From positions 1-35,053 of the forward strand of contig JAHDCF010000032.1 in NCBI GenBank assembly GCA_020630015.1: a stretch of DNA of 35,053 nucleotides, written 5' to 3'. The stretch is from Planktomarina sp. Lineage in GTDB: Bacteria; Pseudomonadota; Alphaproteobacteria; Rhodobacterales; Rhodobacteraceae. The position numbers and the translations under genes are program-made. This document shows positions 9,805 to 35,053 of the stretch, one piece after another (position 1 is the first letter of the stretch; every line of letters starts with the position of its first letter). The notes under the pieces are model-generated. The model made no database searches. It was not told the DNA's origin and worked only from the letters and a program-made list of their open reading frames with translations.

Positions 9805-9864
9805 GTCCGTCGTGGATATCCCACGACCATGTCGCCGCACCCATGCAAAAACGGACTTAGAATT
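9805..9864 (+). promoter_or_regulatory. Structured 5' leader of the yhhQ-type gene; candidate riboswitch
   Basis: A perfect 7-bp hairpin, GTCGTGG-ATATC-CCACGAC, occupies 9809-9827. A second stem can form between GTCC at 9805-9808 and GGAC at 9853-9856, the latter overlapping the only Shine-Dalgarno-like purine run (ACGGA) before the ATG. An A-rich tract, CAAAAAC, precedes it. A hairpin, an A-rich tail and a nearby ribosome site recall preQ1 riboswitches, and the downstream gene is a queuosine-precursor transporter. The hairpin loop is too short for a canonical preQ1-I aptamer, so this is only a candidate. Confidence 0.3.
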
Positions 9865-10512
9865 ATGACACGCACTTATCTTCCTGGCATTATTGCCATG
9901 GCCGCCATCGTTGTGGCCTCTAACATCCTTGTACAGTTTTTTGTCGGTGATTGGCTGACTTGGGGGGCTTTTACGTATCCCTTTGCCTTCTTAGTGACCG
10001 ACATCATGAACCGTGTTTATGGCCCCTCTGCCGCACGTCGGGTGATCTTTGCGGGGTTTGTCGTTGGTATTATCTGTTCATTGATTGGAACCCAAATTGA
10101 TGTTCAAATCGCCCCAGATTTTGCCGCCCCGGCGGTGACTTTGCGGATTGCCCTTGGGTCTGCCACGGCCTTTTTGGTGGCCCAGCTGATTGATGTTTTG
10201 GTCTTTGATAAACTGCGTGGGGGCAGCTGGTGGAAGGCACCTTTGACATCCACCTTAGTTGGATCAACGATCGATACGGCTTTGTTTTTCACAATCGCTT
10301 TTTCGGCTGCAATGACAGGTGTGTTAGGCGCGGATCACAACACGGATTTCTTCAACGAGGTTGTCGCCACCCCATTTGGGGCTGATTTGACCCGTTGGAT
10401 CGGAACCGCCGGGGTTGATTGGTGCGTAAAAGTTGGGATTGCACTGATCGCATTGATCCCATTTCGCCTAATTGTTGGGGCTTTAAGCGGGCCAACCACA
10501 GAATATCGTTGA
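9865..10512 (+). CDS. Queuosine precursor transporter, YhhQ/VUT family
   Basis: A 215-residue inner-membrane protein with about six hydrophobic segments, matching the VUT/YhhQ (DUF165) family that imports preQ0/preQ1 for the tRNA modification queuosine. Family marks are NILVQFFV near residue 18, TYPFAFLVTDIMNRVYG (the conserved TD-N-R-G segment), LVAQLIDVLVFDKLR and STLVGSTIDTALFF. I chose the ATG at 9865. The frame stays open 36 bp further upstream, but those codons would lie in the leader hairpin region and add charged residues. Upstream lie an iteron array and a foldable leader. Downstream is the structured RNA before arfB. A perfect TTGACA overlaps its stop codon. Confidence 0.9.
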   Translation: MTRTYLPGIIAMAAIVVASNILVQFFVGDWLTWGAFTYPFAFLVTDIMNRVYGPSAARRVIFAGFVVGIICSLIGTQIDVQIAPDFAAPAVTLRIALGSATAFLVAQLIDVLVFDKLRGGSWWKAPLTSTLVGSTIDTALFFTIAFSAAMTGVLGADHNTDFFNEVVATPFGADLTRWIGTAGVDWCVKVGIALIALIPFRLIVGALSGPTTEYR

Positions 10513-10555
10513 CATATGACACACCTGTGCCACCTTAGCTGTATCTTGTAACAGC

Positions 10556-10572
10556 GAAAGGAGGTGATCCAG
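10556..10572 (+). promoter_or_regulatory. Extended Shine-Dalgarno: 17-nt complement of the 16S rRNA 3' end
   Basis: GAAAGGAGGTGATCCAG is the exact reverse complement of the usual alphaproteobacterial 16S 3' tail (CTGGATCACCTCCTTTC). AGGAGG lies 7 nt before a GTG start codon. Ordinary sites in this window pair over 4-6 nt. The rRNA itself is not in the window, so the comparison rests on general knowledge of that conserved sequence. Confidence 0.8.
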
Positions 10573-10628
10573 TGTCGAGAAAGGTATTGGAGAGTGTGGT
10601 TGAAACAGGTCTGGAGGTTGCGCTTTAA
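10572..10628 (+). CDS. 18-residue mini-ORF behind the extended Shine-Dalgarno
   Basis: GTG at 10572 opens an ORF for MSRKVLESVVETGLEVAL, ending in TAA at 10626-10628. The peptide has a basic start and then alternating hydrophobic and acidic residues, which could form one short amphipathic helix. It shows no signal peptide or membrane segment. Translation is suggested by the ideal start-site spacing. The stop codon sits in the loop of a 6-bp hairpin, so ribosomes finishing the ORF would open that hairpin and favour the competing downstream one. It may be a regulatory leader peptide; a functional protein product is not shown. No known leader-peptide family was recognised. Confidence 0.5.
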   Translation: MSRKVLESVVETGLEVAL

Positions 10629-10724
10629 GGCAACCCTTGAAGGGTAACTTCAGGACTTGGGCGAAGGTGTCCGAAGCGTTTTGCGAAACGCTGAATTCAA
10701 CCCCCGCCTCCGCAAACTTTCGAT

Positions 10725-10755
10725 GGGCCGTCCGATCTGGGCGGCCCGTTTTATT
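10725..10755 (+). terminator. Rho-independent terminator between mini-ORF RNA and arfB
   Basis: GGGCCGTCC pairs with GGGCGGCCC (one G-U pair, 5-nt loop), followed by GTTTTATTT. It ends 18 bp before the arfB start codon, so either arfB has a promoter overlapping the hairpin or it is expressed by read-through/antitermination from the RNA upstream. Confidence 0.85.
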
Positions 10756-10772
10756 TGTGCCATGGTGGTGTC

Positions 10773-11195
10773 ATGCTGCGCGTGAACGACGACATAACAC
10801 TCCAAGACTGGGAACTTTCTGAAAGTTTCACCCGGGCCCAGGGGCCAGGTGGGCAAAATGTTAATAAGGTGTCCACCGCTGTTGAACTGCGGTTCGAGGC
10901 ACAACGCAGCCCGAACCTGCCCCAATTTGTGAAAATGCGGTTGCGCAAAATTGCTGGCCGCAAATGGACAAGTGATGGCGCGATCATTCTAAGGGTGGAA
11001 GACACACGATCACAGGCCCGCAATCGCGAAATCGCCCGTGACCGCCTGATCGAAATGATTGAAAAGGCAACACATCGCCCCAAAAGACGTATCGCCACCA
11101 AACCCACCTTGGGTTCAAAACGCCGGCGTATGGATGCAAAAACGCAAAGGGGCGCGGTGAAATCACTGCGTGGAAAGGTAAAATTCGATGACTGA
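10773..11195 (+). CDS. arfB: Alternative ribosome-rescue factor ArfB (peptidyl-tRNA hydrolase)
   Basis: ArfB (YaeJ) enters stalled ribosomes that lack a stop codon in the A site and hydrolyses the peptidyl-tRNA. The 140-residue product equals the E. coli length. It has the release-factor GGQ motif at residues 26-28 (RAQGPGGQNVNKVSTAVELRF) and the long basic C-terminal tail (RPKRRIATKP, GSKRRRMDAKTQRGAVKSLRGK) that binds the mRNA channel. The ATG at 10773 is chosen because the frame further upstream runs into the terminator hairpin. Its Shine-Dalgarno is weak (GGTGGTG), in striking contrast to the extreme site of the mini-ORF upstream. It overlaps the next gene by 8 bp. Confidence 0.93.
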   Translation: MLRVNDDITLQDWELSESFTRAQGPGGQNVNKVSTAVELRFEAQRSPNLPQFVKMRLRKIAGRKWTSDGAIILRVEDTRSQARNREIARDRLIEMIEKATHRPKRRIATKPTLGSKRRRMDAKTQRGAVKSLRGKVKFDD

Positions 11196-24354: not shown

Positions 24355-24399
24355 GTCGACCAGCGATGTCACGAGAAAGCGCGATTTGTACGCGTATGA

Positions 24400-24483
24400 C
24401 CCGTTCCCTACGCCGGTATTGCCCGGATCAGGTTCGACGGGTCGGTTACAAAACCTCTCAGCCCCAAGGGCCCCCCGACGGAT
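24400..24483 (-). promoter_or_regulatory. TPP riboswitch (THI element)
   Basis: The minus strand carries the three conserved blocks of the TPP aptamer in order: CTGAGA (24461-24456), GAACCTGATC (24435-24426) and GCGTAGGGA (24413-24405). The P1 helix can form between CCGT (24481-24478) and ACGG (24404-24401). It lies 69 bp ahead of thiD and should repress the ten-gene thiamine operon when TPP is plentiful. Confidence 0.96.
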
Positions 24484-24493
24484 TACTTGGTTA

Positions 24494-35000: not shown

Positions 35001-35053
35001 TGGCGACCCCGGCAGGATTCGAACCTGCAACCTGCCCCTTAGGAGGGGGCTGC
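35001..35053 (-). tRNA. tRNA-Arg(CCU), 5' part outside window
   Basis: On the minus strand the 3' half of a tRNA is clear: anticodon stem GCCCC/GGGGC around the loop CTCCTAA with anticodon CCT (35043-35041), a 5-nt variable loop, T stem GCAGG/CCTGC with loop TTCGAAT, acceptor strand CGGGGTC, discriminator G and an encoded CCA at 35003-35001. The D arm and 5' acceptor strand lie beyond the window. Confidence 0.92.

Follow-up and report, generated by a model that had tools for sequence, protein, structure and literature searches.

A candidate RNA gene with a 16S-complementary ribosome-binding sequence and a short reading frame, conserved in Rhodobacteraceae and related to RNAs across the Alphaproteobacteria

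The window, the whole stretch of 35,053 nucleotides that was analysed, carries between a transporter gene and a gene of the RF-1 domain family an element that, judged from comparison with its relatives, appears to be a genuine RNA gene, old and widespread, whose short open reading frame (ORF) looks translated and whose match to the 3' tail of 16S rRNA seems selected. It would be the form taken in Rhodobacteraceae by an RNA that spans the Alphaproteobacteria and is related to the Rfam family RF01867 (CC2171). Our best reading, held tentatively, is that of a free-standing RNA on which ribosomes load and which responds to their supply through its fold and its translation; transcription at this locus, translation, switching and an effect on other genes are all things that we infer. 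RF01867 is listed as an sRNA of a few alphaproteobacteria, and no reported function was found for it in the open-licence literature. Its relatives, on the present evidence, extend over much of the class, where they occur as a single copy and have a ribosome-binding site that complements the exposed 16S tail. If binding or sensing of 30S subunits is indeed its function, the element would measure ribosome supply by means of RNA, something for which few examples are known.

Features and range of the element

The original prediction had placed at this site a folded RNA with a terminator, in which an 18-codon GTG ORF follows a 17-nt sequence complementary to the 16S tail, and each of these parts was recovered. 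The features of the element and its neighbours are:

9829..10512, + strand: upstream neighbour, Vut_1 family transporter (PF02592)
10556..10572, + strand: 17-nt ribosome-binding sequence GAAAGGAGGTGATCCAG, exact complement of the 16S rRNA 3' tail
10560..10565, + strand: 5' strand of P1 (Shine-Dalgarno core), pairs with 10706-10711; 96.7% of cells paired
10568..10591, + strand: P2, hairpin over the start codon (10568-10575 with 10584-10591); 98.8% of cells paired
10572..10628, + strand: 18-codon ORF, GTG start 10572-10574, TAA stop 10626-10628; this length in 104 of 110 family loci
10599..10603, + strand: 5' strand of P3, pairs with 10697-10701; 3 of 5 pairs changed on both sides
10608..10658, + strand: P4 (10608-10612 with 10654-10658), encloses P5; 4 of 5 pairs changed on both sides
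10622..10643, + strand: P5 (10622-10630 with 10635-10643), stop codon in the 5' strand; 5 of 8 pairs changed on both sides
10697..10701, + strand: 3' strand of P3
10706..10711, + strand: 3' strand of P1, GCCTCC, an internal anti-Shine-Dalgarno resembling the 16S tail
10724..10755, + strand: intrinsic terminator hairpin and T run (scan hairpin 10722-10750); 5 of 10 pairs changed on both sides
10773..11195, + strand: downstream neighbour arfB (RF-1 domain, PF00472), outside the element

By blastn, the element was found in 153 of 198 Rhodobacteraceae genomes. A covariance model (R1) built from 30 Rhodobacteraceae loci matched 170 of the 198 at E<=1e-9 and 181 at E<=0.01; the former count is preferred because weak R1 matches in the window's own genome (50-137 nt) include short ones that look like terminators. 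These matches were rejected as paralogues on the same grounds. Elsewhere, a second strong R1 match (E 7.2e-27) at G185:C41:15046-15214, in a genome with its main copy on contig C19, is a possible paralogue. For comparisons within the family, a set of 110 loci was formed from the top 30 blastn hits and 80 of those that followed, and it therefore leans to better hits; counts with n=107 omit three of them (L253, L260 and L272) that were missed by the search pattern.

Relatives occur in single copy through much of the Alphaproteobacteria. The pattern AAAGGAGGTGRTCYNRTG was present in 82 of 385 genomes of the class, with one match each and none in the control, and a degenerate 20-mer of the element start was found in 48 of 86 alphaproteobacterial genomes versus none of 213 genomes of other classes in the phylum. 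A scan of named genomes yielded at least 119 stretches, and among the 80 matches listed all but one came from genomes labelled alphaproteobacterial or plain "Proteobacteria"; the exception, a Gemmatimonadota match (L123), was discarded, other hallmarks being absent. When R1 was applied to 42 chosen loci of other families, 40 aligned end to end at E<=1 and 33 at E<=1e-3.

The Rfam model RF01867 aligned to the window over its full length (model positions 1-159 of 159; 31.7 bits, E 3.1e-05), and both share the 5' motif GAAAGGAGGTG[A/G]TCC with the start codon, a short ORF and a 3' terminator. The motif was likewise seen at loci of other families. They differ in that the score stays below the gathering cut-off of 75 bits, here as in three further Rhodobacteraceae genomes, that the internal stems are different and that P1 here uses the Shine-Dalgarno sequence itself. 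Across the class RF01867 matched in 61 of 289 genomes, nine of them above the cut-off; matches above it were obtained at Bosea, Methylobacterium and Roseiarcus loci, and the one match among 14 control genomes was in Caulobacter vibrioides. CC2171 reportedly goes back to Caulobacter work by Landt in 2008. Rfam lists it as an sRNA, and the available text on Rfam 15 mentions it in a table of structure updates, without a function; reports of 16S complementarity or of an ORF in CC2171 were not found in the open-licence full-text literature. For Mesorhizobium huakuii, the accessible part of one study gives an RNA-seq product of about 215 nt for MH_s33, annotated as CC2171, and products for 34 of 35 predicted sRNAs (PMC5596092).

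The 20-mer also occurs on 21 viral contigs. A phage origin was considered and rejected: 14 of these contigs carry other, mostly longer reading frames, five a Bradyrhizobium-type and two an MSHCH-type element. On nine contigs (L297, L301, L302, L304, L306, L308, L310, L311 and L314) longer frames follow the same long Shine-Dalgarno and form two families that recur, one a small basic protein rich in Gly and Lys, the other VSTALVHLAIQSALAALTP.... The Bradyrhizobium-type element (MSxxKRCHLAGIAR) lies about 170-240 nt from a tRNA gene at L138, L146, L158 and L164, and its copies on the five viral contigs are perhaps flanks of prophages inserted at tRNA genes.

The 16S match and the short reading frame

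Since the 16S 3' tail is absent from the window's own assembly (0 matches in G000), the tail of a genome of the same genus (G045) served as reference. It ends in ...GCGGCTGGATCACCTCCTTTCT / CTGGATCACCTCCTTTCT, to which the 17-mer is the exact complement. The spacing from GGAGG to GTG is 7 nt, and the GTG overlaps the 17-mer, whose final base is its G. The 16-mer core AAAGGAGGTGATCCAG has a single copy in the 2.88 Mb genome at up to one mismatch, and its reversed control has none.

The match is kept in relatives. Positions 2-15 of the 17-mer comprise 1540 cells in the 110 Rhodobacteraceae loci, of which 1499 form Watson-Crick pairs, 37 form G-U pairs and 4 are mismatched when a single 16S tail is applied to all loci, so that 37 of the 41 altered cells stay compatible with pairing; the cells are not independent events, because relatives share changes. 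The commonest substitution, A to G at position 12 (30 of 110 loci), retains a G-U pair. Similar proportions were obtained at 30 loci that had been retrieved by RF01867, without use of the motif (412 Watson-Crick, 6 G-U and 2 mismatched of 420 cells). The A run at positions 2-4 is constant, yet it is unpaired in the consensus fold, and therefore intramolecular pairing cannot account for its constancy. On this comparative evidence complementarity to the 16S tail appears to be under selection, a property to be expected of a 30S-binding or ribosome-sensing RNA. In several families a CAACAA-like, probably unstructured leader (10520-10560 in the window) precedes GAAAGGAGGTG.

The ORF is conserved as well. 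GTG stands at the same position in 110 of 110 Rhodobacteraceae loci, and the ORF is 18 codons long in 104, the other six having 12, 17, 19, 20, 20 and 24 codons. Counted on all 110 loci and not on ORFs preselected for 18 codons, codon 19 is TGA in 45, TAG in 39, TAA in 20 and TGG in none. Length is likewise characteristic in other groups: 14 codons in 8 of 8 Bradyrhizobium-type and 18 in 19 of 22 Sphingomonadales-type loci, 20-26 in 43 Caulobacter-type and 22-30 in 25 Rhizobiales-type loci. The distance from the start codon to the motif CUGGAU takes five lengths among 36 Caulobacter-type relatives, with one frame kept in 35, and the region 3' of the ORF splits 14/12/10 by frame.

The peptide behaves differently from the frame. 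Although MSRxxLERGVGT is similar throughout Rhodobacteraceae, a crude count over 101 loci gave a pN/pS of 1.08 for codons 13-18, and purifying selection on the peptide was not detected there; codons 2-12 gave 0.59, but they lie inside conserved helices. Across families the peptides do not align (MSHGSA..., MSSDF..., KRCHLAG...). That frame and stop are kept while the peptide drifts points to translation itself as the signal, and the pattern fits selection on translation, not on the peptide, at least in Rhodobacteraceae. At four loci (L069, L090, L091 and L183) the ORF behind the long Shine-Dalgarno has 54-59 codons and a signal-peptide-like start.

Fold and terminator

The region 10545-10760 folds at -93.6 kcal/mol (z -5.14), and 0 of 200 shuffles folded as well. 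A scan for terminator-like hairpins found one versus 0.8 expected from shuffles; the scan alone is therefore weak, and the stem covaries in relatives. The fold was assessed on an alignment of 30 loci (A1; MAFFT, not structure-fitted), in which 94.7% of the cells of the consensus fold are paired and 19 of 46 pairs show double changes, amounting to 96 double-changed cells versus 17-27 when partners were slid. The compensatory changes that were to be looked for in relatives thus exist: P3, P4, P5, P6 and the terminator covary within Rhodobacteraceae. P1 and P2 show one-sided changes and no double changes there, because one strand is nearly invariant, and their support is therefore consistency, not covariation. 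A hairpin proposed at 10616-10635, with the stop codon in its loop, is not the helix that is kept in relatives; the covarying helix pairs 10622-10630 with 10635-10643.

Single sequences were folded for 92 of the 107 loci, the other 15 being without a terminator by the pattern used (some of these sequences end before it). The Shine-Dalgarno sequence paired with the 3' region in 87 of the 92 and P2 formed in 79. In lowest-energy folds at least 5 of 7 Shine-Dalgarno bases were paired in all 28 Rhodobacteraceae-type and all 8 Bradyrhizobium-type sequences, and other groups gave 11 of 43, 10 of 22, 13 of 25 and 14 of 21. Closure of the Shine-Dalgarno by the RNA itself is thus predicted throughout only in these two types and is not general.

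Before the alignment of two further groups, outlying loci were removed (7 of 43 Caulobacter-type, 7 of 22 Sphingomonadales-type). For the remaining 36 Caulobacter-type sequences a hand-drawn structure was 86.7% paired, with double changes in 22 of 38 pairs and 66 double-changed cells versus 13-31 when slid; in its start-site helix, AUCCAG with CUGGAU, 3 of 6 pairs are changed on both sides. RNAalifold on these 36 sequences returned nothing beyond the terminator and a 3-pair hairpin, which weakens the support for the hand-drawn structure. For 15 Sphingomonadales-type sequences RNAalifold gave 45 pairs, 18 of them double-changed, in which codons 3-7 are closed against bases just 5' of the terminator.

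Neighbouring genes, proposed mechanism and rival explanations

Downstream of the element lies an RF-1-domain gene that, from its short GGQ protein, we take to be arfB. The original prediction had offered two readings of the element, a small RNA by which free 30S subunits are titrated or sensed and an attenuator in which ribosome availability decides read-through into arfB. Vut_1 is upstream in 97 of 107 family loci and arfB lies within 450 nt downstream in 90; it is non-adjacent in 17 of 107. Most fetched loci extend no further than about 300 nt to the upstream side and 1.1 kb to the downstream side, and one of the 17 (L216) has only 484 nt downstream. In 16 of these 17 cases the genome was searched, and 15 have arfB elsewhere, within about 8 kb in 8, and on a different contig or 16 kb or more distant in 7; the RNA is intact in these 7. 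Of 148 loci belonging to other types, which include some repeats of the same genome and of which 141 had 450 nt or more of downstream sequence, none showed an arfB-like hit on that side, and among 177 other loci such downstream hits occurred only at 18 Rhodobacteraceae-type elements. Adjacency to arfB is common within the family, and arfB was found downstream in no other family sampled. Neighbour clusters differ between families, and the element is therefore regarded as free-standing. At one Hyphomonadaceae locus (L153) the element has a different ORF, and an arfB-like gene lies 179 nt upstream of it on the opposite strand.

The distance from the terminator to the arfB start, measured at 79 loci, has a median of 48 nt and does not exceed 60 nt in 46 of them. 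This leaves little room for a promoter, so that some read-through is likely, and read-through probably feeds arfB in Rhodobacteraceae. Pairing of an antiterminator with the 5' arm of the terminator was sought in 92 loci; 0 had z below -2, and the median z was -0.18 (mononucleotide shuffles). On synteny and the lack of an antiterminator in these 92 loci, the attenuator was rejected: the RNA is not an arfB device, and the arfB link is one of local neighbourhood. That the element is a leader attenuating arfB by ribosome state we accordingly hold to be very unlikely, despite the frequent adjacency and the short gap.

The other half of the prediction fared better. Its parts (16S match, ORF, fold and terminator) are conserved and the gene is free-standing across the class, and therefore the small RNA that titrates or senses 30S subunits is favoured over the attenuator; of the idea that ribosomes act on this RNA the anatomy held, and read-through into arfB as its outcome was given up. 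As ORF length is kept but the peptide is not, the RNA may sense or hold ribosomes. We propose a free-standing RNA gene of about 180-200 nt whose ribosome-binding site, being complementary to the exposed 16S tail, would allow 30S subunits to bind tightly to the RNA while it is still being made. Loaded ribosomes would translate the short ORF, which ends at a fixed place, and what is selected would be ribosome entry, passage and release, not the peptide. In the ribosome-free state, in Rhodobacteraceae, the same bases would be closed by the internal copy of the 16S tail (GGAGGU with GCCTCC) and by the start-codon hairpin. The RNA would thus exist in two forms, one held by a ribosome and one closed on itself; its fold, its stability or its exposed anti-Shine-Dalgarno strand may report ribosome supply.

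The closest mechanism, by analogy, and a possible precedent for the ribosome-supply reading is the duf1127-1 leader of S. meliloti, where the ribosome-binding site pairs with early codons of a short ORF when free of ribosomes, the RNA and not the peptide matters and a monitor of ribosome availability has been proposed (PMC12218461). It differs in being a cis leader whose C-rich element is probably Rho-dependent, and the accessible text describes no Shine-Dalgarno as long as the 16S tail (PMC12218461). Homology to it was rejected, a search of the surroundings of 177 element loci by regular expression (not by profile) having shown no DUF1127-like motif. Extended Shine-Dalgarno sites of S. aureus indicate, in the portion of the report available, that long pairing is used in nature: there it is lengthened towards the start codon, at natural starts and small ORFs, but in ordinary mRNAs of another phylum and without a dedicated RNA gene (PMC13009471). 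Bartonella BbsR14 is, as far as the accessible text goes, likewise an sRNA touching Shine-Dalgarno/anti-Shine-Dalgarno pairing; it exposes anti-Shine-Dalgarno loops, whereas the RNA of the window carries the Shine-Dalgarno itself and hides the anti-Shine-Dalgarno (PMC7717549). Caution against the ribosome-loaded reading comes from ribosome profiling in Caulobacter, where, according to the part of the study at hand, newly mapped ncRNAs were in general untranslated (PMC4117421).

Among the rival explanations, an ordinary trans-acting base-pairing sRNA, whose seed would be an exposed strand such as the anti-Shine-Dalgarno CACCUCC and whose ORF would be secondary, seems rather unlikely, if worth keeping in mind. 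It agrees with the free-standing gene, the terminator and the sRNA relatives in Rfam; the available accounts describe a translated ORF in Rhodobacter Pos19 with regulation independent of translation (PMC5036791), and suggest anti-Shine-Dalgarno seeds for BbsR14 (PMC7717549). Yet it leaves unexplained both the 14 nt of 16S complementarity outside the anti-Shine-Dalgarno strand and the fixed stop codon. A small-protein gene, in which the peptide is functional and the long Shine-Dalgarno serves simply to bind ribosomes very strongly, we judge unlikely. The conserved frame and stop, the MSRxxLERGVGT motif and the four signal-peptide-like ORFs of 54-59 codons would suit it, but codons 13-18 drift by the crude pN/pS count, the early codons are also RNA helix and the peptides of different families do not align. 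A long Shine-Dalgarno may also mean merely strong expression, and at least some phage genes carry one. A random long Shine-Dalgarno in intergenic sequence has almost no probability left: the near-chance yield of the terminator scan would fit it, and conservation across the class, the frame, the stop and the covariation refute it.

The ribosome-supply reading has a bolder extension, which we put forward as speculation and think improbable. The RNA would be a class-wide regulator of the ribosome itself and would bind free 30S subunits at their anti-Shine-Dalgarno tail. The ORF would serve as its release valve and the internal 16S-tail copy as its off switch, and the RNA would set the balance between Shine-Dalgarno-led and leaderless or weak-Shine-Dalgarno mRNAs in Alphaproteobacteria.

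Two further RNA features were recorded in the window, both on the minus strand: a TPP riboswitch aptamer at 24388-24487 (81.1 bits) and a partial tRNA at 35004-35053, which is cut by the window end.
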